NCBI GenBank assembly: GCA_026415985.1
Contig: JAOAGA010000004.1
Coordinates: 1-41,685, forward strand
From: Pseudomonadota bacterium
GTDB lineage: Bacteria > CALINM01
DNA length: 41,685 bases
Reading direction: 5' to 3'
The translations under genes and the position numbers were made by a program. The notes beneath the pieces are model-generated. The model was given only the letters and a program-made list of their open reading frames with translations, was not told where the DNA came from and made no database searches. This document shows, one piece after another, positions 1 to 33,804 of the stretch (positions are counted from its first letter, which is position 1; each line of letters opens with the position of its first letter).

Positions 1-111
1 CTGGAAAAATTTCAATCTATGGGAATACCTACTATAAATTATGGTGTGTTTATCTCTAATTTTTATGAAATTGACAATAAAGCATTGGAACCATTCAGGA
101 GTATAAGATGA
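1..111 (+). CDS. C-terminal tail of an unidentified protein (5' end outside window)
   Basis: Frame 1 is open from the first base and ends at TGA 109-111, giving the last 36 residues of a protein (it ends in PFRSIR). The stop overlaps the start of the next gene as ATGA, so the two are probably cotranscribed and translationally coupled. I do not recognise the fragment. Because its neighbour is a hydrogenase-like sensor-regulator, this may be another part of the same signalling or redox unit, but that is inference from position only. Confidence 0.6.
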   Translation: MEKFQSMGIPTINYGVFISNFYEIDNKALEPFRSIR

Positions 112-2363
112 TCATACAGACAAAAGAAGGTTTGTGTAAAAAGTGTTATTCATGCATTAGAGGGTGTCCCGTTAAAGCAATAAAGGTACAGAACGAGCAG
201 GCGTATGTTCTGCAGGAAAACTGCATTGTCTGTGGAAACTGTATAAAGGTCTGCTCTCAGGAAGCAAAGGATGTAGAAAAGGGGTTAGCAGTTGAAGATG
301 CCCTGAAAAAAAACAAAAAGCTCGTGGCGCTTTTAGCACCATCCTTTGTCTCCTATTATCAGGAGGTACACCCTTTACAGGTTGTATCGGCTTTAAGAAA
401 ATTAGGGTTTAGTTATATCTACGAAGTTGCGTACGGGGCAGAAATAATTATAGATAAGTACAAAGATTTTATTATTAAAGCTAAAACAACTGAAAAGAAA
501 ACCTATCTATCCTCCCCCTGCCCTGCAATTGTTAATTTAATAACAAAATTTTATCCGGAATTAATAGGCAATCTCATACCTATCGCCTCTCCGATGATAG
601 CAATGGGGAGATTAATTAAAGAAAAAATAGATAAATCACTTATATTCTTTATTGGTCCATGTGTTGCCAAAAAAAATGAGATAAAAGATGATACATCTGC
701 TATTGATGCGGTCTTGACCTTTAAAGAACTCGATGAAGAGTTCATAAAAAGAGATATTAACCCTAAAAGAAAAAGTTTTTCAGACTTCGATGGATACTTC
801 CCTCGTGTAGGAAGATCCTTTGCCCTTTCCGGTGGACTTCTTAAAACCGCTTCAATCGGAACAGACATTCTTGACAGTGACATCCTTGTAATTGATGGAA
901 AGGATGAAGTTATCAGCTTTTTGCATTCCCTGAAAAATAACGAGATAAATCCAAAGTTTGTAGATATTCTTTTTTGCAAAGGTTGCATAGACGGTCCGAT
1001 AATGAAAGAAAAAGGAACAATTTACGAAAGGGCTGAAAAAGTAAAAAGGTATATTAAAGATTATTACTTTCAGGGAGAGTATGAAGAGAAGGTTTTGCCT
1101 CAAATGGGTTTAGAACGTACTTTCACACAAAAGGATAGATTAATTTTTATAGAACCTAAAGAAGAGGATATCAAAAAGATCTTAGATGAGATGAAAAGCT
1201 ATAACGGCGGAGAGAATTTAAACTGTGGCGCCTGCGGTTATGACAATTGTTATGAAAAAGCAAAGGCAGTGGTTATGGGGCTTGCAGAGATAGAGATGTG
1301 CCTGCCTTACCTTTTAAACAAGATATCTGTCAATAATATCAACCTTTTAAACGATTACAAGATAATTCAGAAAGAGCTCTATAAAGAAAAGGATTTTAGT
1401 TTTATACTCGGTAAGACTCAAAAAATGAGAGAGGTATGGGAACAGATTGAAAAAGTTGCCCTTACCAATACTACCGTTCTTTTAAGAGGCGAAAGCGGAA
1501 CGGGAAAGGAGATGGTTGCCACATTAATTCATCAGAAATCAATTCGTAACGACAGACCTGTGATAACCGTAAACTGTACAACCCTGACAGAACATTTACT
1601 TGAAAGCGAGCTTTTCGGACATATAAAAGGCTCCTTTACGGGTGCCATTGAAAACAAAAAGGGGCTTTTTGAAGTGGCACACAATGGCACGATTTTTCTC
1701 GACGAGATCGGGGATATGCCGATCAACCTACAGACAAAGCTTTTAAGGGTCTTGCAAAATGGTGAGATTAGACCTCTCGGGAGTAACGAAGTAAAAAAGA
1801 TTGATGTCAGAGTTATAGCAGCAACCAATAGAAACTTAGAGCAACTGATAGAAGAAGGAAAGTTTCGTGAAGATTTATATTACAGATTGAATGTTTTCAG
1901 CATTCATCTGCCACCTTTAAGAGATAGAAAAGATGATATTCCTTACTTTCTGCACTATCTCATAGAGACAAACTCAAAAAAATTAGGTAAAAAGATTGTA
2001 TCCTATGAAAAAGAGATTATTAAATATTTAAAAGCCTATAACTGGCCCGGTAATATAAGAGAGCTGGCAAATGTGGTGGAAAGGGCAATAATACTGGCTC
2101 AAGGTGACGAACTTAAGCTAAAAGATTTTCCAATCCACATACAATCAGTTACACCAGAAACTGAAATTATCGCTTCAAATAAAAACCTTTGGGAACAAAG
2201 AGATGAACAACTGGCATTATTTGAAAAAAATCTAATTAAGAGATACCTCAAACAAACGATGGGAAATGTCAAAAAGGCATCAGAATTGGCTGGAATTCCA
2301 AGACCCACATTTCACAATCTTATGAAAAAATATAGTATTAGAAGAGAGGACATTTTTCTATAA
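108..2363 (+). CDS. [FeFe]-hydrogenase-like iron-sulfur sensor fused to a sigma-54 activator
   Basis: A cytoplasmic one-component regulator, by domain content. Residues 1-60 carry two 4Fe-4S motifs (C10/13/16/20 and C39/42/45/49). Residues about 65-350 resemble the large-subunit C-terminal domain of [FeFe] hydrogenase, with H-cluster-like cysteines C138 (SSPCPA), C185 (GPCVAKKNE) and C290/C293 (FCKGCIDGP). A PF04060-type Fe-S domain follows (C373/376/381/398). Residues about 430-665 are a sigma-54-interacting AAA+ ATPase with Walker A GESGTGKE (461-468), the GSFTGA loop (508-513) and Walker B FLDE (to 533). A Fis-type helix-turn-helix ends the protein (about 712-745). AGGAG lies 6 bases before the ATG. 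The hydrogenase domain departs from catalytic enzymes (no second L1 cysteine, CxxC in place of CxxxC), so I infer sensing of H2 or redox state rather than bulk catalysis. Targets probably lie outside the window; I saw no convincing -24/-12 promoter here. Confidence 0.88.
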   Translation: MIIQTKEGLCKKCYSCIRGCPVKAIKVQNEQAYVLQENCIVCGNCIKVCSQEAKDVEKGLAVEDALKKNKKLVALLAPSFVSYYQEVHPLQVVSALRKLGFSYIYEVAYGAEIIIDKYKDFIIKAKTTEKKTYLSSPCPAIVNLITKFYPELIGNLIPIASPMIAMGRLIKEKIDKSLIFFIGPCVAKKNEIKDDTSAIDAVLTFKELDEEFIKRDINPKRKSFSDFDGYFPRVGRSFALSGGLLKTASIGTDILDSDILVIDGKDEVISFLHSLKNNEINPKFVDILFCKGCIDGPIMKEKGTIYERAEKVKRYIKDYYFQGEYEEKVLPQMGLERTFTQKDRLIFIEPKEEDIKKILDEMKSYNGGENLNCGACGYDNCYEKAKAVVMGLAEIEMCLPYLLNKISVNNINLLNDYKIIQKELYKEKDFSFILGKTQKMREVWEQIEKVALTNTTVLLRGESGTGKEMVATLIHQKSIRNDRPVITVNCTTLTEHLLESELFGHIKGSFTGAIENKKGLFEVAHNGTIFLDEIGDMPINLQTKLLRVLQNGEIRPLGSNEVKKIDVRVIAATNRNLEQLIEEGKFREDLYYRLNVFSIHLPPLRDRKDDIPYFLHYLIETNSKKLGKKIVSYEKEIIKYLKAYNWPGNIRELANVVERAIILAQGDELKLKDFPIHIQSVTPETEIIASNKNLWEQRDEQLALFEKNLIKRYLKQTMGNVKKASELAGIPRPTFHNLMKKYSIRREDIFL

Positions 2364-2468: not shown

Positions 2469-3323
2469 TTAGCCTAAACTTATAAATCTTTTTATCTTTC
2501 TCTTAAAACTATCTATCAGAAATGGAGTTAGTCTCTTTTTCTCCTTAAGTATTGATAAAAAAAGCTCCTTTCGGGTTGACGGTATCTCTTCCTTATCCTG
2601 TCTTTCAATAAGACTTATTGCACCAAAGTAACAACTACTTATACAGGCTCCACAACCCAGACATGCAGATTTATCTATCTTGGCTACTCTTTTTCTCTCA
2701 GTTTTTTCACAGGATATACACTTAATATTACAATTTTTTATGCATTTTCCACAAAAATCACACTTATCTCCATCAATTTCTGCAATAAATCTGGTTTTTG
2801 CAATACCACTTTTATAACCCATCATAACTCCTGCCATTAGCTCACAACAACAATTACAGCAATTGCATATAAAAGACTGCCTGTTTCTTATGTTATCGGT
2901 AACATGGGTTAACCCGTGTTCTCTTGCCTTATCAAGAACTTTTATTAATTCCTCTACCGTTAACTCCTTTGCAAACCCTCTTCTAACCATAAACTGTGCT
3001 GTAGATCCTAAAGATATACAAATATCTTCCATAGGTGCTGATTTTTTACAACTTTCATTCTGATGAAATTTTTTATGCCTGCAATAACAAAGGGAAACAC
3101 CGCCATAGCCAGCTTTTCTGATAATTTTTTTTGCATCTTCATAGGTTGTAATGTTTGATGTTACAGGTATCTTATCTTCATATACCAATGTTCTTGTAAG
3201 AGGTGTTTTTCCGCCAAAGAATTCTCTTGCCTGACCGATGTCATCATGAAGATATTCAGTCATTAGTCTGGCAAGTTCTTCCATCGGCAAATCTGTTCGT
3301 TTTTTCATAAAAGTAAGTTCCAT
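2469..3323 (-). CDS. 4Fe-4S protein, C-terminal part of a frame-split gene
   Basis: Cysteine-rich protein of 284 residues with a CYCRH motif (C79, C81, then C92), an unusual cluster FICNCCNCCCE (C153, 155, 156, 158-160) and two ferredoxin-type clusters (C188/191/194/198 and C221/224/227/231). As I remember this family, single proteins of about 400-500 residues carry an N-terminal winged-helix-like segment, then a GFFEF-type motif, then exactly this cysteine order. Here the N-terminal part is the adjacent upstream frame, overlapping by 19 bases. Reading through would give GLW-ELTFMKKR if one G were added to the GG at 3320-3321. This start ATG therefore probably lies inside the original protein. 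It could be a sequencing error, a real frameshift, or two coupled polypeptides. The role is electron transfer, partner unknown. The gene is convergent with the hydrogenase-like sensor. Confidence 0.8.
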   Translation of the reverse strand: MELTFMKKRTDLPMEELARLMTEYLHDDIGQAREFFGGKTPLTRTLVYEDKIPVTSNITTYEDAKKIIRKAGYGGVSLCYCRHKKFHQNESCKKSAPMEDICISLGSTAQFMVRRGFAKELTVEELIKVLDKAREHGLTHVTDNIRNRQSFICNCCNCCCELMAGVMMGYKSGIAKTRFIAEIDGDKCDFCGKCIKNCNIKCISCEKTERKRVAKIDKSACLGCGACISSCYFGAISLIERQDKEEIPSTRKELFLSILKEKKRLTPFLIDSFKRKIKRFISLG

Positions 3324-3634
3324 AAGCCGATGAATCCCGGAAGCAGTAAATAAAAAACTTCTTCTCCACAGGTGAAATCCATCACCAAACCTTTATCTGC
3401 CATCCTGTCAAGTATTGGTTTTAGTTCCTTTTCAGGGATTTTGCTATAAGATGATATTTCATTTATAGTAGCTTCCGTAAGAGGAAACTTAGACGCCACA
3501 TACGCCTCTTTTTCATCAAAAATCAAAGAAAGTATCTCTCTTAGCTTTTCGTTATCATATAAACCTATAGGATATTTATTCAGTCTATCAATCAAAGGAA
3601 TAAGAACTTCTTTAGAAAGTGATAAATGCCCCAT
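3305..3634 (-). CDS. N-terminal part of the split 4Fe-4S protein
   Basis: 109 residues with a helical, winged-helix-like region (about 25-95) and no cysteine cluster of its own. It ends PGFIGLWNLLL just after the point where the family continues in the other frame. The ATG overlaps the upstream stop as TAATG, and AGGA lies about 8 bases before it, so translation of this start looks genuine. The last four residues are probably out-of-frame read-through. Together with the following frame it would make a protein of about 390 residues. No slippery heptamer for programmed -1 frameshifting is visible near 3318-3330. An alternative is a natural split with translation restart at the ATG 19 bases before this stop. 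Confidence 0.7.
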   Translation of the reverse strand: MGHLSLSKEVLIPLIDRLNKYPIGLYDNEKLREILSLIFDEKEAYVASKFPLTEATINEISSYSKIPEKELKPILDRMADKGLVMDFTCGEEVFYLLLPGFIGLWNLLL

Positions 3635-4185
3635 TATTTTTGTCCTAACATTCCTTTTTTTAACTCTTCATCAACTGGTTTGTTACCAATATAGATAGAC
3701 AAAAGTCCAAAGGCAAGTCTGTTAGATTTTATAATCCCTAAGACCTTATTGTTGTGTTTTGTAATTACTGTCCCATCTGACAATAATACAAGTTCTAACG
3801 TATCTCCCACATTAAAGTCTGAATTAAATTGAGAAAAAAACTTTTTACCAGCCTCTGACTCCGGTATGTCTGGAGCAATGCTCTGAAAAGCTTCTTTAAT
3901 TGTATCGGTTACCTTATTCTTTTCAACTTTATGCAAAAAATCAAGCCTGATGACCTTATCTGAACCATCAGAAACAGCCTCGTCATAGTTTGTAACCTTT
4001 TTTGTTGTATATAGTGATGCAACATAAACCTTGACAAACCATTTTTTTCTGATGCCATAGCCATTTAATTTTAATTGATTGTTGTTTAAGGTAATTGTTT
4101 CCGATATATTAACACCTGAGACATTTAACCCATAAAGAGGTACTGATATGACTAATAATAAAAAAATTAAAAATATATTTTTCAT
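3634..4185 (-). CDS. Chalcone isomerase-like secreted protein
   Basis: 183 residues with a clear signal peptide (MKNIFLIFLLLVISVPLYG) and the family motif NGYGIRKKWFVKVYVASLY at about 41-59, typical of the bacterial chalcone isomerase-like domain (Chalcone_3 type). These bacterial proteins are exported, and their role is mostly unknown; fatty-acid or small-molecule binding has been suggested for the fold, and true flavonoid isomerase activity is not expected. Its stop overlaps the start of the ferredoxin N-terminal frame by one base (TAATG), so those genes share a transcript. A strong terminator separates it from fadL upstream, so it should have its own promoter in or near the 67-base gap. 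Confidence 0.75.
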   Translation of the reverse strand: MKNIFLIFLLLVISVPLYGLNVSGVNISETITLNNNQLKLNGYGIRKKWFVKVYVASLYTTKKVTNYDEAVSDGSDKVIRLDFLHKVEKNKVTDTIKEAFQSIAPDIPESEAGKKFFSQFNSDFNVGDTLELVLLSDGTVITKHNNKVLGIIKSNRLAFGLLSIYIGNKPVDEELKKGMLGQK

Positions 4186-4252: not shown

Positions 4253-5584
4253 TTAAAAATTATAATTTAGCTGTGCACTGAGGATTTTAACGTTACAATC
4301 ATAGGTGCCTTTTAAATTACCCCTCGTTGCGTTTTCATTAGTTGTTGTTGCTACCTGATTAATTTTGGGATCATTTACAAAAAGATACGCAGCGCCCAAA
4401 TCTAATGAAACTTTATCTGAAAACTTGTAACCAAGGCCGGCAGATATCCATTTTCTGCTTCCATCGGGTATCCTTGGAGTTCTGTATTCAGGGCTTGTTA
4501 CAGGCGTCTCATCATAGGCAATACCAAATCTGTAAGTCCTTTTGTCTGTTGCATAGTAGCTTAATCCCAAAGAGTAGCGGTAATTATCATCCCAGTTTTC
4601 AGTTGTCAAGATGTCAGAAGCACCATTACTACTCTTAACTCGAAGCTCTTTGAATCTGCTCCACTTTGTCCAACTTACATCTGCCATTACCGCCAACTTA
4701 GGTGTAATTTTTGAATAAAAAGAAGCAGAAGCGGTATCAGGAAGATCAACATCTGCAGTAACAGACCGGTTTTGTAAATTCAGATTTGATGCCAATAAGG
4801 GATGAACATTACTAAACTTTACATCGCCTTTCAAAGATTGCTGAACTCTTGAACGATAGGACAAACCAAAACGAGTATCCTTAGAGAACTCATAAAGTAA
4901 TCCTGCGTTATAGCCATATCCCCATGCATCTCCTTCCAATGAAGAATAGGCATCCGTTGCCACTGACCAAACACCTACGGGAGCTCCATTTGAAGCCAAA
5001 ATAAGTTTCTGATCTACAGCACTTGAAAGCTCTGCCTTAATATATTGAGCACTAACACCAAACCCAAAACTCAATTTGTCTGTAATTCTATAGGCAAAGG
5101 AAGGATTGATATTAATTGTCATCATGTCCGATTTTATAGCATGATACCTCCCAATCCAATCACTGGGATACTCTGTCCCAAGCCCAAAGGGAACATTTAT
5201 ACCTAATCCAAAGGCTGATTTATCTGACAATTTTCTCAAATAATAAATATTCGGAACAAACTTACTAACACCACCATCTCCACCATTATTCGAACCAAGA
5301 GAGCCGATTAAAGGATTTATACGAGAAGAGCCTTCATCATGAAATTTTGCACTGGGAGAGATGAAATGAATTCCTGCTATAAACTGATTATTTAATCTTG
5401 TCATTCCTGCTGGGTTAAAAAATATTGTTGTAGCATCTTCGGCAGAGGCAGAACCACCTGCATAGGCATTGCCCAATCCACTGACACTTTGTTCAATCAA
5501 CTGAAAGCCTGCACCATACACACTTCCATAACTCAGTATTAGAATGGTAAATACAGCCCAGAGCTTAAACCGCAACTTCTTCAT
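4253..5584 (-). CDS. FadL/OmpP1-family outer-membrane channel
   Basis: 443 residues. A signal peptide ends near VYG-AGF, and the mature N-terminus AGFQLIEQSVSGLGNAYAGG with the NPAGM motif is diagnostic of the FadL/OmpP1/TodX family. Alternating hydrophobic strands and a C-terminal phenylalanine (QLNYNF) fit a 14-strand outer-membrane barrel. The family takes up long-chain fatty acids or other hydrophobic compounds; the substrate here is unknown. GGAGG precedes the ATG by a short spacer. It has its own terminator downstream and sits 194 bases from the glutamate synthase gene, so it is likely a single-gene unit. I did not find a convincing promoter in that gap, although it is very AT-rich. Confidence 0.9.
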   Translation of the reverse strand: MKKLRFKLWAVFTILILSYGSVYGAGFQLIEQSVSGLGNAYAGGSASAEDATTIFFNPAGMTRLNNQFIAGIHFISPSAKFHDEGSSRINPLIGSLGSNNGGDGGVSKFVPNIYYLRKLSDKSAFGLGINVPFGLGTEYPSDWIGRYHAIKSDMMTININPSFAYRITDKLSFGFGVSAQYIKAELSSAVDQKLILASNGAPVGVWSVATDAYSSLEGDAWGYGYNAGLLYEFSKDTRFGLSYRSRVQQSLKGDVKFSNVHPLLASNLNLQNRSVTADVDLPDTASASFYSKITPKLAVMADVSWTKWSRFKELRVKSSNGASDILTTENWDDNYRYSLGLSYYATDKRTYRFGIAYDETPVTSPEYRTPRIPDGSRKWISAGLGYKFSDKVSLDLGAAYLFVNDPKINQVATTTNENATRGNLKGTYDCNVKILSAQLNYNF

Positions 5585-7995: not shown

Positions 7996-10900
7996 CTAAA
8001 AAACTTTAAGAAATGGTGCCAATTTTTCCAGTTTTAATTTATAAGTCTGATATTCATCTTCTTTTTTCATAATTTTAAGAGTTTTTAATATATTTATAAG
8101 AACCAAAATATTCTTCTCGTCCAGATCATAGGCCTTTTTGTAATGTCTGAGAGCCTCTTTATAATCCTTTTTGATAAAATAGAGGTTACCGATATCATTA
8201 ACAAAACCTGAACTCATTATATTTTTTCTCAAAAGAAACTGAGACAAGTCTAAAGCATCATCCAGTGAGCTGTTTTTATAGAGAAAATATATAGATTTTT
8301 CCGGCTCTATTTTTCCTGAGGTAATAAGGGTTAAGATCTCCTCGTTTCTCAACTGACCCAGCTCTGAGATAAAATTGTTTAAATTACTTTCAAAACCTGA
8401 CGGTAAATCTACACTCATTTTTAGTTCCAGGAGTGTGGGAGGTTTGTAAACCTCCCAAGATTTTTTTATACTTATGAACTTGATATTGTTGTTTTGATTA
8501 TCAATTACATTTTTTATACCCCTCTTCCAGGCATTAAAAAAATTATCATTAAGTAAAGTCAGCTCCACGGGTATCCATACAGAATTTTCATATATGACTA
8601 TATCTTTTTCCTTAATGCCAGACCTTTCAATATCATCAGGAGAGATACCGCTGTCAAACATAAGAAGTATATGACCGGGGTAATCGATGGCAATTGTACT
8701 TATACCTAAACTTTCAGCGATTGCAGAGTAAAGACTAACCAAATCATCACAATCGCCCGTCTTTCTTTTTATAGTCTCTCTTGGAAACTGAACATAATCA
8801 ATCTGATCTTCCTTTTCGGATACCACATTATAAGGATTATTCGGGTCTCTCTGATAGGTTATTCCTATGGCTCTCATAGCTTCAAAAATTGCCATACCAT
8901 AGGTAATATTTGTATTAACTACCTTCTTTTTTATATTTCTTACTATATTTCTTGAAAAATCAACAACTACCGGATCCTTAGGCGTGATAAATATGGCAAT
9001 TTTTCTTCTGTCTGACCAGGTCAATGCATGTTTTTCCATAACGGTTACTGGATGGGTTACGTTTATCTCCTTTTCTTCTCCAGATTTGAAATATTTTGCC
9101 TTAATATCAACCTGTATGGTAGAGCTCTCTGTTAACTCAAGAAGTTTGTTATTAAAAACACCTTCAACATCTACCTTTAATGTTTCTAATGGTGCCAGCC
9201 TTTCGATCTCTTTTTGAGTAGGAAAATCCATATACTCTTTCATCATGACCTGGATTTTTAATTTCTCAAAATCTTTGGAAGTATTGTTGGTAATAGCTAT
9301 TTTTAAAAAAGGTGACTTTTCATAGCTCTTATAATTATTTGCGAAAATCTGTTCTGCTTTAATAACCTTTATCTCAAGGGGTGATAAGAATTTCTCCGCA
9401 TAAAATAATTTTTTAATCTTTTTTCTATTCTCATCCTGAGATAAAACCTTTTCCAAAGATTTCAACTCTCTCTCAAAAGCCTCCCAAAGATTCTGAAACG
9501 AGTTTTTCAGAGCTAACTCCTTACCATCTTCTTCATTCATATGATAGATAGTAGCACCCTTTGAAAAACTAAAAAGAGGTTTTTTAAGATAGGAATCAAA
9601 GGCAGAAATATCCAAAGAAGAGTTAAAGGTCTTAAGATTTCCTCCCACAAGACTCTGACTGACTCTAACTTTCTCTTGTATCATAACGATAATATCAGCC
9701 TGTTTATCTACTGCTTGATCATAATAATTTGAGGGGTCACACTGTCCTATACCAAAATCTTCTATAGGATAGTTTAAGGGAGACAGGTTTTTTATAAGTA
9801 ATCTTTTTGAATACCCCATCCCACTGCAATCTAAGATAGCGATCTTTATCTCCTTATCCTTGCCTCCGAGAAGACCAACTTCTCTTAAATCGGCCAGCAA
9901 AAGCTCCCTATTGATAAAGGCCATAAAGAAACCATCAAACATTATATCAGTAATATTAGTGCTTATCGGAATGACCAAGGGAACATAATTTGAAAATTTT
10001 GGCATGATCTTCTCATTTACTATATTTATCTTATCACGTGTCATATCACCAATTAATGTTTCCACAAATGTTTTTACTGCTCTCCATTTAGCTCTCGTTG
10101 CCGAGACCTTATCTATATCATCCTTTTCTTTTATAAGAGAGAGCTTTACATCAGTAAAGGTCACAACATACTTCTGATCTTTTCCACTACCTCTCAAATC
10201 ATAGGATTTTTCAAAAAACTCTTTTCCTTTTAGGTTTTTGGAGCTTAATATGTTTTTTAGATTTTCTTCATTTTTTAGCTGATATGACAGGAAGTAAGCT
10301 ACATCAAGAAGATTTTCATACTCTTCATACCAGATTGACTGTATCTTTTTTAAGGTCTCGTAAGAATCCAAAAATCTATTTTTTAATAAATTTTCAGCGA
10401 GTTCTCTTTTAAGCTCCATTAATGTAAGCTCTTTTAGCTCCTCTATGTTTTTCGCAAAAGGAATTACCATCTTTATTTTGGGAGTCCCCTTTACCTTTTT
10501 TAAAAAATCGAGTTCTTTTCTCTCGTAAGTTTCTACTTCATCAATGTAAACATTGCCTTCTGCCTCAATTAAGTTTTCATTTCCCATTAAAATCAGCTTT
10601 TCACCACTGATTCTTACCTCCCCTTTCAATATCAGTGCAGTCTTTTTGCTATCTACCTTTGTTTCTTTAACAGTTAAATTAGAGCTGTTTAAATATATGC
10701 CAGAGTTATAAGAAGATATATTGACCTTTGTAAAGTTAACAAAAGACTTCCTGTCTGCCCTAAGAAACACATCAAAGTTTGATATTTCAGAGTTTGAGAT
10801 CAGAGAGGTGGAGTTTGATAAAATAATTTCTTTACCATTCTCAAAAATCCCGAAATCTATTACAAATGCACCTTCTCCTGCATCTTTAATCTCTATGATA

Positions 10901-12354
10901 TAATCGCTACCTTTAAAGGCAATTCTGCCATCCTTCTTTCCCTTGCCAATAATTTTTCCCATTGATACCAGTTTACTGTTTTTCCTGAACTCTATCACCA
11001 CGCCATCTTCTATTTCCAAAGTAACATCCTTTAGGATATTGACTTCACCATCTACTATATAAGGACTGCCTGCACTGAATAATGTTGTATTCTCTTTTAT
11101 CTTAGCAGGTAGAGCAGTAGGTCCCCTTTTAACAGCAGTAATTATTTTTTCTTCATACTTACTTAAGTTTTTTGCCCTGTCACGGGCATAAACTCTATAA
11201 AAGTACTTTTTTCCATAATCGATATTTTTATCTATAAACTCTGTAATTGACGTCGAACCAATTTCAACAAAATTAGGATTGTCCACCCCACCTCTCATTA
11301 CAACAAAATCCTTTAAATCATCGTCAGCAGGCGATTTCCAGTTAATCAGGATACCATCAGATACTGAAACAAGCTTCAAGTCCTTTACCGGACCAGGGGG
11401 GATTGTGTCTACAGTGACGGAATGAGGAACTATATAATTACTCTCCGTTTTTTCTTTTTGATTATACAAAAAGGCTGTTATAATCTGGTTTTTAAACAGA
11501 TCGCCTTCTTTAACGACATATTTACCAAGATACTCCCCAGGCTTTACCTCTGTGAGCTCAACTGCCTTTCTCTCATTTCCAATATTAAAATAGGCTGTCA
11601 AACCCTCTTGGGCACTTACAGAAACGAGTATCTCATCCTGTGCCTTGAAAGGACCATCAAGGGCATTTGTTATTACTGAATATATCTGAGGAGGTTTCTT
11701 GGCTTTAAGGGTTTTTGGCTCCGGTATTTCTTTAGCCAAATTTCTACAAAGTTTATCTGTCAAGGCAATCTTAACGCTTTCTCTTAATACAAGGGCAGAT
11801 GTTACCGCCGTTGATATGGCACCCCAGGGAGAGGTTGGTAAACCTCCGGATCTTTCCGTAACAGAGTCTTCTTTCTCCCAGATTATTTCTCCGTTTTCAG
11901 AAGATACAAGTTTAACCTTAAGCCTCAGAGTAAGACTTGCATAGAGAGCTGCATAGATCTTTTCTATGCCTAATATCTCAATATATATGAGCCCTTCAAC
12001 GTTAAGAATCTCTCCAAGCTCCTTAGGGGTTAATCTATCCCATTTCTTGCCTTTCTCTTTTTCTATAAGGTATAACTTGCTGTCAACATCATTGAGTTTT
12101 GATATATCATAGTTTTTATAACTTATATGATTGTAAAAGGTTGTTCTTATCTCCTTCTTATCCTCTTCTTCACCCTCTCCCGTTGCAGGTAAAACCGCTA
12201 TATTCTTTGGCAGTTTTTTTTCCTTTTTAAAGAGCCCGCTCCCAAGCTCAACAGCGCTATCTTTTATATCCTTCAGTTTTTCCAGAGGATCAAATGAATA
12301 AACATTCCCCGCAAGTATAAAGAAAATAAAAAGGGACAAAAAAAATCTAATCAT
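7996..12354 (-). CDS. Giant periplasmic multidomain protein (DUF799-like, FN3, beta-helix, transglutaminase-like, TPR)
   Basis: 1452 residues with a Sec signal peptide (to about residue 20) and no lipobox. Domains by eye: 48-215 resembles the DUF799/GNA1162 lipoprotein fold (KNIAVLPATGEG; the later part reads SSENGEIIWEKEDS); 225-312 Ig-like; 318-408 fibronectin type III (starts PPGPVKDLKL, ends KKYFYRVYARD); 426-608 right-handed beta-helix-like repeats; about 700-1010 resembles FlgT/LPP20-type periplasmic modules (KIAILDCSGMGYS, ADIIVMIQEK); about 1150-1290 transglutaminase-like (C1202 in TGDCDDL, H1228 in YPGHILLMF, acid possibly E1264 in WIPVELT); 1385-1450 TPR. It begins 3 bases after the CsgG-like lipoprotein gene, so the two are made together. 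A role in envelope assembly or surface structure is inferred. Domain boundaries are approximate, and the 700-1010 assignment is weak. Confidence 0.7.
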   Translation of the reverse strand: MIRFFLSLFIFFILAGNVYSFDPLEKLKDIKDSAVELGSGLFKKEKKLPKNIAVLPATGEGEEEDKKEIRTTFYNHISYKNYDISKLNDVDSKLYLIEKEKGKKWDRLTPKELGEILNVEGLIYIEILGIEKIYAALYASLTLRLKVKLVSSENGEIIWEKEDSVTERSGGLPTSPWGAISTAVTSALVLRESVKIALTDKLCRNLAKEIPEPKTLKAKKPPQIYSVITNALDGPFKAQDEILVSVSAQEGLTAYFNIGNERKAVELTEVKPGEYLGKYVVKEGDLFKNQIITAFLYNQKEKTESNYIVPHSVTVDTIPPGPVKDLKLVSVSDGILINWKSPADDDLKDFVVMRGGVDNPNFVEIGSTSITEFIDKNIDYGKKYFYRVYARDRAKNLSKYEEKIITAVKRGPTALPAKIKENTTLFSAGSPYIVDGEVNILKDVTLEIEDGVVIEFRKNSKLVSMGKIIGKGKKDGRIAFKGSDYIIEIKDAGEGAFVIDFGIFENGKEIILSNSTSLISNSEISNFDVFLRADRKSFVNFTKVNISSYNSGIYLNSSNLTVKETKVDSKKTALILKGEVRISGEKLILMGNENLIEAEGNVYIDEVETYERKELDFLKKVKGTPKIKMVIPFAKNIEELKELTLMELKRELAENLLKNRFLDSYETLKKIQSIWYEEYENLLDVAYFLSYQLKNEENLKNILSSKNLKGKEFFEKSYDLRGSGKDQKYVVTFTDVKLSLIKEKDDIDKVSATRAKWRAVKTFVETLIGDMTRDKINIVNEKIMPKFSNYVPLVIPISTNITDIMFDGFFMAFINRELLLADLREVGLLGGKDKEIKIAILDCSGMGYSKRLLIKNLSPLNYPIEDFGIGQCDPSNYYDQAVDKQADIIVMIQEKVRVSQSLVGGNLKTFNSSLDISAFDSYLKKPLFSFSKGATIYHMNEEDGKELALKNSFQNLWEAFERELKSLEKVLSQDENRKKIKKLFYAEKFLSPLEIKVIKAEQIFANNYKSYEKSPFLKIAITNNTSKDFEKLKIQVMMKEYMDFPTQKEIERLAPLETLKVDVEGVFNNKLLELTESSTIQVDIKAKYFKSGEEKEINVTHPVTVMEKHALTWSDRRKIAIFITPKDPVVVDFSRNIVRNIKKKVVNTNITYGMAIFEAMRAIGITYQRDPNNPYNVVSEKEDQIDYVQFPRETIKRKTGDCDDLVSLYSAIAESLGISTIAIDYPGHILLMFDSGISPDDIERSGIKEKDIVIYENSVWIPVELTLLNDNFFNAWKRGIKNVIDNQNNNIKFISIKKSWEVYKPPTLLELKMSVDLPSGFESNLNNFISELGQLRNEEILTLITSGKIEPEKSIYFLYKNSSLDDALDLSQFLLRKNIMSSGFVNDIGNLYFIKKDYKEALRHYKKAYDLDEKNILVLINILKTLKIMKKEDEYQTYKLKLEKLAPFLKVF

Positions 12355-32262: not shown

Positions 32263-33804
32263 ATGAGCCTTAAACATATCGATTTTAATGAAGATTTTAT
32301 TAAGGCTCTTGATTTAATAGAAAACTCAGACAAATCAGTTTTTATAACAGGAAAAGCAGGGACCGGAAAGTCAACACTTCTTAAATATTTCAGGGAAAAT
32401 TCAGCCAAAAAGTTTGTAGTTCTTGCACCAACTGGAGTTTCTGCAATCAATGTAGAGGGACAAACGATCCATTCATTTTTTAATTTTAAACCAGACATAA
32501 CCCCTCTTTCAGCAAATAAAATTAAACCAATTGATAAAGAAATATATAAAGAGCTCGAGATGATAGTAATAGATGAGATATCAATGGTAAGGGCAGATCT
32601 TCTTGATTCCGTTGATGTCTTTCTCAGAAAGTATGGCAAGCACAGGTCAAAGCCCTTCGGTGGAATAAAAATGGTCTTTATCGGCGACTTATATCAACTG
32701 CCACCCGTTTTAACCAATAGAGACAGTTTAGCTTATTATGCCCATTACAAAAGCCCCTATTTTTTTGGTGCCCGGGTATTTAATCTTCTTGATATGGAGT
32801 TTGTTGAGCTTACAAAAATTTACAGACAAAGTGATAATACTTTTATAGAAATTTTAAATAAAATAAGAAACTATACCGTAACCGATGAAGACATTCTAAA
32901 ACTTAATAGCAGGCTTAATCCAGATTTTAAAGATGATGAAGGTTACATCTATCTTACAACGACAAACGACCTTGCCGAAGAGATAAACTCTACTAAACTA
33001 AAAAATTTAAACGGCAATTTATATAACTTTAAGGGAGAGATAAGAGGTAGTTTTTCGAAAGAAGATATGCCTACATTACCGGTTCTGGAGCTAAAAAAAT
33101 CTGCTCAGGTTATGCTACTTAATAATGATAGTTTAGGAAGATGGATAAACGGATCCATTGGTAAGATATTGGACTTTTACCCTGATGATGAGAAAATTGT
33201 TGTTAAACTTAATGATGGCAATGTTGTGGATGTTACTCCCTATAAATGGGATATATTTAGGTTTTATCTTGACAAAAGAGAAGACAAGATTAAGTCTGAA
33301 ACCATCGGCTCCTTTATACAGTATCCGCTAAAACTCTCCTATGCAATAACCATCCACAAAAGTCAGGGAAAAACCTTTGATAAAGTTATTATCGACTTAG
33401 GGAGAGGCACCTTTTCATCGGGTCAGCTCTATGTTGCATTAAGCAGATGCACAAGCTTAGAGGGAATTGTTTTAAAAAAACCTATTAATAAAGGCCACAT
33501 TAAATTAGACAAAGAAGTTATCAAGTTTTTGACAAACTATCAATATATGCTATCGGAAAAAAAGTTTCCACTACAGGAAAAGATTAAGATTTTAGAAAAA
33601 TCTCTTCAGGAAAAAAAATCCATAGAGATAGTTTATTTAAAAACCAGGGATGAAAAGACAAAGAGGAAAATAATACCGCTATTTATAGGTGAGCTTGAGT
33701 ATAACGGAAAGACTTTTTTAGGATTAACCGCTCACTGCCTGCTTAGAAATGAGGAAAGGGTTTTCCGAATCGACAGGATACTTGAAATAAGGGAACTTAA
33801 TTAA
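32263..33804 (+). CDS. PIF1-like helicase with C-terminal WYL domain
   Basis: 513 residues. SF1B helicase motifs: Walker A GKAGTGKST (30-38), APTGVSAINVEGQTIHSFF, VIDEISMVR, FIGDLYQLPPV, IYRQ, AITIHKSQGKTFDKV and LYVALSRC. PIF1 enzymes unwind DNA 5' to 3' and resolve G-quadruplexes or stalled forks. Residues about 446-513 form a WYL-like domain (IEIVYLKTR...IPLFIGELEYNGKTFLGLTAHC). A WYL domain is known at the C-terminus of Thermotoga PIF1, where it binds single-stranded DNA. AAGGAA lies before the ATG. Confidence 0.9.
   Translation: MSLKHIDFNEDFIKALDLIENSDKSVFITGKAGTGKSTLLKYFRENSAKKFVVLAPTGVSAINVEGQTIHSFFNFKPDITPLSANKIKPIDKEIYKELEMIVIDEISMVRADLLDSVDVFLRKYGKHRSKPFGGIKMVFIGDLYQLPPVLTNRDSLAYYAHYKSPYFFGARVFNLLDMEFVELTKIYRQSDNTFIEILNKIRNYTVTDEDILKLNSRLNPDFKDDEGYIYLTTTNDLAEEINSTKLKNLNGNLYNFKGEIRGSFSKEDMPTLPVLELKKSAQVMLLNNDSLGRWINGSIGKILDFYPDDEKIVVKLNDGNVVDVTPYKWDIFRFYLDKREDKIKSETIGSFIQYPLKLSYAITIHKSQGKTFDKVIIDLGRGTFSSGQLYVALSRCTSLEGIVLKKPINKGHIKLDKEVIKFLTNYQYMLSEKKFPLQEKIKILEKSLQEKKSIEIVYLKTRDEKTKRKIIPLFIGELEYNGKTFLGLTAHCLLRNEERVFRIDRILEIRELN

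Follow-up and report, generated by a model that had tools for sequence, protein, structure and literature searches.

The 41,685 nucleotides of DNA analysed here as a whole (the window) contain a minus-strand locus that is very probably one gene for a single-chain iron–sulfur (Fe-S) protein, which has lost one base at codons 104–105 through recent mutation or sequence error and is now read as two frames (Table 1). In the ORF listing these frames overlap by 19 bases (3305–3323), as the original prediction had it; the stop-free overlap that they share is 88 nt long, and around 3340–3310, at the break, the coding signal abruptly leaves the first frame for the second. The stop of the first fragment, TGA at 3307–3305, overlaps the ATG at 3308 of the second frame. 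Where genes overlap elsewhere in the window, the pairs examined encode distinct domains. Translated intact, the split gene would yield a single chain some 390 residues long; as it now reads, it would yield a winged-helix fragment of 109 residues, ending at this TGA.

Table 1. Features of the split gene, its junction and the genes next to it in the window.
Feature	Position	Strand	Description
First fragment, 109 aa	3305..3634	-	Winged-helix domain and short out-of-frame tail; family residues 1–104
Second fragment, 284 aa	2469..3323	-	Cysteine-rich middle (SLCYCRHK, CNCCNCCC) and C-terminal 2[4Fe-4S] ferredoxin domain; family residue 105 to end
Break	3318..3328	-	Gly103 (GGC 3328–3326) to Glu106 (GAA 3320–3318): 5 bases, against 6 in relatives (codons 104–105)
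ATGA	3305..3308	-	Stop of first fragment overlapping invariant Met110 codon of second; possible reinitiation site
Chalcone isomerase-like protein gene	3634..4185	-	PF16036, E = 5.2e-40; 1-nt overlap (TAATG) of its stop with the first-fragment start
FadL/TodX-type outer-membrane fatty-acid transporter gene	4253..5584	-	PF03349, E = 5.8e-111

Homologues were collected with a profile scan, one genome per species and one peptide pattern, and the best 80 of 522 relatives were compared. These best 80 comprise 23 close orthologues (L036–L057 and L106; best-segment identity 52–62%) from Desulfuromonadales, Desulfobulbales, Neomarinimicrobiota and Nitrospinaceae, two close but partial members (L058 and L060) and 55 more distant ones. 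An uninterrupted frame runs across the junction in 78 of the 80, whereas the window has no such frame; this continuity in homologues shows that the two frames are no chance pair. The two exceptions are L060, where the gene runs off its contig, and L058, which has lost its N-terminal half, and in all 16 loci with an apparent internal stop this is a natural stop near the C-terminal end. Counts at the junction and by alignment column come from 31 of the 80 loci (33 aligned, minus L058 and L060, which are without the N-terminal half), the remaining 47 having been checked for an open frame only. The two frames are therefore the parts of a single family protein, about 390 residues long, whose gene has a net deficit of one base, as had been predicted: relatives among the best 80 are not encoded as two proteins, and the family alignment spans both frames. 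With the 23 close orthologues the window shares the MGH start, the winged-helix part, the GFFEFTFMK junction, the 2[4Fe-4S] domain and 51–69% identity per half; the orthologues differ in having one open frame instead of two. For the whole protein, no curated name was found in Pfam or NCBIfam.

Two loci of this family depart from the usual layout in other ways. At L058 (350–1200, a Desulfofustis metagenome-assembled genome), an upstream frame directly replaces the N-terminal half before the remaining Fe-S part; from its sequence we take this frame to resemble a recombinase C-terminus. At L009 (1453–1719), an 88-residue frame holds only the second ferredoxin motif and the C-terminus of the family (45% identity) and is perhaps the remnant of a deletion.

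Both halves of the broken gene proved well conserved, in line with the original prediction: the first fragment is 53–69% identical to the 23 close orthologues (105 columns each) and the second 51–62%. All 18 family cysteines are kept, neither half contains an extra stop, and the window keeps 46 of the 48 columns conserved at 95% or more, one of its two departures being residue 104, at the break. Trees were built from 25 loci plus the window, omitting five distant rows and L057, which a contig end cuts; the root-to-tip distance of the window is not unusual in the winged-helix tree (0.71, range 0.37–0.88), nor is it in the Fe-S tree (0.47, the shortest of all). Even similarity, intact cysteines, so few departures and the lack of further stops mean that the break arose recently, is an error or is tolerated, and argue against a long-dead gene because more damage would then show. 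We infer that the loss is recent and its product impaired, recency being judged with one genome of the genus. Neither of the two other genomes examined from the phylum, both of the same family, has the Fe-S gene; no second intact copy was found in the source genome, a draft of 161 contigs that is 84% complete; and a 28-base junction pattern had no match in viral contigs.

The position of the missing base can be narrowed from the relatives, in which residues 103–107 are mostly GFFEF, with F104, E106 and M110 each present in 31 of 31 and residue 105 being F in 27, I in three and V in one. The missing base had been placed at GG 3320–3321, which leaves Leu104 where all 31 homologues have Phe, and this placement is probably a few bases off. 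On codon comparison, loss inside the Phe104 codon (window 3325–3324) appears more likely, although the exact base is not fixable from one sequence; such a loss would retain Phe104 and make ATG 3323 codon 105 (Met), and it is the more economical reading. The break lies in a short run of bases; a classic error site would be a long homopolymer.

The error rate of the assembly bears on whether the base was lost in the organism or in the consensus. Against 895 kb of the source genome, none of 148 aligned sister-genome genes (292 queried; at least 30% identity) was a frameshift candidate, and in the reverse direction one adjacent frame switch appeared among 199 aligned genes (753 queried), in a sister genome. 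Breaks of this kind are thus uncommon, and indels do not pervade the assembly, although a lone error somewhere in the genome is well within expectation. We consider the chances about even that the loss is real and recent on this lineage, perhaps a strain variant, and an error in the metagenome-assembled consensus somewhat unlikely.

Programmed −1 frameshifting would also account for two frames: ribosomes would slip back one base before the TGA, so that full-length protein is made alongside the short fragment. A −1 slip anywhere from codon 104 to the TGA restores the family length, and 13 nt past the TGA begins a stable RNA stem whose z of −4.0 is the lowest of 154 windows in the region; however, six further window starts have z of −3.0 to −3.6, two holding the same stem and four lying elsewhere. 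Ahead of its stop, the first frame has no X XXY YYZ heptamer in the −1 register; the sole heptamer of that form, TTTTTTA at 3357, is in another register, with residues that are conserved in the first frame lying downstream of it, and the run of six A starts only at the A of the TGA. None of the best 80 of 522 relatives uses a frameshift. We therefore reject this mechanism, which lacks a slippery heptamer in register, as very improbable.

The intact architecture consists of a winged helix, a cysteine-rich part and a 2[4Fe-4S] ferredoxin domain. Pfam TrmB matches the first fragment weakly, below the cut-off, and winged-helix-like secondary structure is predicted in the model of a full-length relative, L051 (pLDDT 88.2, pTM 0.87; block means above 90 for residues 11–110). 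Pfam Fer4_7 matches the second fragment (E = 1e-07), which has two CxxCxxCxxxC motifs, the ferredoxin-type pair shared with 2[4Fe-4S] ferredoxins (Pfam Fer4_7/Fer4; HdrA, FwdF and clostridial ferredoxin). Compared on the L051 model, not on the window protein, the fold resembles these ferredoxins with VIA-align Z of about 9–11 within residues 274–356 (1fca, Z 9.4, rmsd 1.1, 55 aligned), and the likeness is limited to the C-terminal part of the family protein. Because the ferredoxin domain fills the fold list, the winged-helix and CxCCxCCC parts were barely probed by the fold search; neither gave a strong sequence match in Pfam or PDB, and the winged-helix half had no significant sequence match to a solved structure. 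The break maps inside helix 100–108 of the L051 model, between the winged helix and the Fe-S part. Modelled alone, the first fragment gave a poor result (pLDDT 63.3, pTM 0.49) compared with the full-length protein, hinting that the halves need each other, although the shorter alignment may explain the low confidence.

This placement also makes it physically conceivable that two complementary chains do the work of one, since the end of helix 100–108 is where the first fragment stops and Met110 of the second lies. It is nonetheless improbable, in our judgement, that the split is real, fixed and tolerated, with two chains assembling into the usual fold and the second made by restart after the TGA at the overlapping ATG on Met110 or by initiation at ATG 3323. 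Conservation is seen in both halves; the mostly hydrophobic tail of the first fragment, equal in length to that of relatives, reaches the end of the helix and could complete it, Met110 coming after it in the model; and reinitiation is a known route, ATGA overlaps being described as supporting termination–reinitiation in PMC6728339. Yet the first chain loses Phe104 and Glu106, each invariant in the 31 relatives, ribosome-binding motifs are weak ahead of either candidate start (just one GGA, at −13 or −14), and no other homologue among the best 80 of 522 relatives is split likewise. The overlap itself does not speak for adaptation: the conserved Met110–Lys111 build it into the family, since an identical one-base loss would create ATGAA at the same distance in 22 of the 31 intact relatives, and we reject it as evidence of evolved coupling.

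It is conceivable, if rather improbable, that a single step sufficed here, the lost base putting a stop on a conserved in-frame Met at a domain boundary and giving a translationally coupled pair whose winged-helix and 18-cysteine Fe-S subunits still assemble; by the same count, the family sequence is predisposed to such an outcome. Of the three outcomes originally offered (recent loss, error, or two tolerated chains), the first two are favoured, although the three are only partly separable. A single gene broken by the loss of one base remains our preferred reading.

In the window the Fe-S gene follows the FadL and chalcone isomerase-like genes; neither sister genome has the chalcone isomerase-like gene or the Fe-S gene. 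Within the flanks of the 23 close orthologues (up to 3 kb a side), Pfam names identified chalcone isomerase-like proteins in six, thioesterases in six, enoyl-CoA hydratases in seven and acyl-CoA dehydrogenases in eight, all as raw counts; FadL had no match in these flanks. From sequence, we also presume MerR in six of the 23 and a FadH-like oxidoreductase in six. Fold and neighbours tentatively suggest that the intact protein may be a redox-responsive regulator or an electron-transfer partner of fatty-acid beta-oxidation, in which the Fe-S clusters would sense or carry electrons and the winged helix would bind DNA or a partner protein.

Three other loci of the window may be recorded here. Convergent with the split gene is a gene (108–2363, plus strand) for a 751-residue protein with an N-terminal ferredoxin, an iron-only hydrogenase-like domain (PF02906), a sigma-54 activator and a Fis-type HTH, possibly a hydrogen- or redox-sensing regulator. 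The PIF1-like helicase encoded at 32263–33804 (plus strand) carries a WYL domain at its C terminus, and a 1452-residue protein at 7996–12354 (minus strand), for which Pfam gave no match at E 1e-5, adjoins a 671-residue protein with a CsgG-like stretch.

We regard the locus as an ordinary frameshift in an interesting, uncharacterised family, and the two frames should be catalogued as separate genes only after a check of the reads. Were the split to prove genuine and fixed, a single base would have brought about a clean gene fission, with reinitiation ready-made. The uncharacterised single-chain family, often found beside fatty-acid oxidation genes, is a more useful lead than the frameshift.
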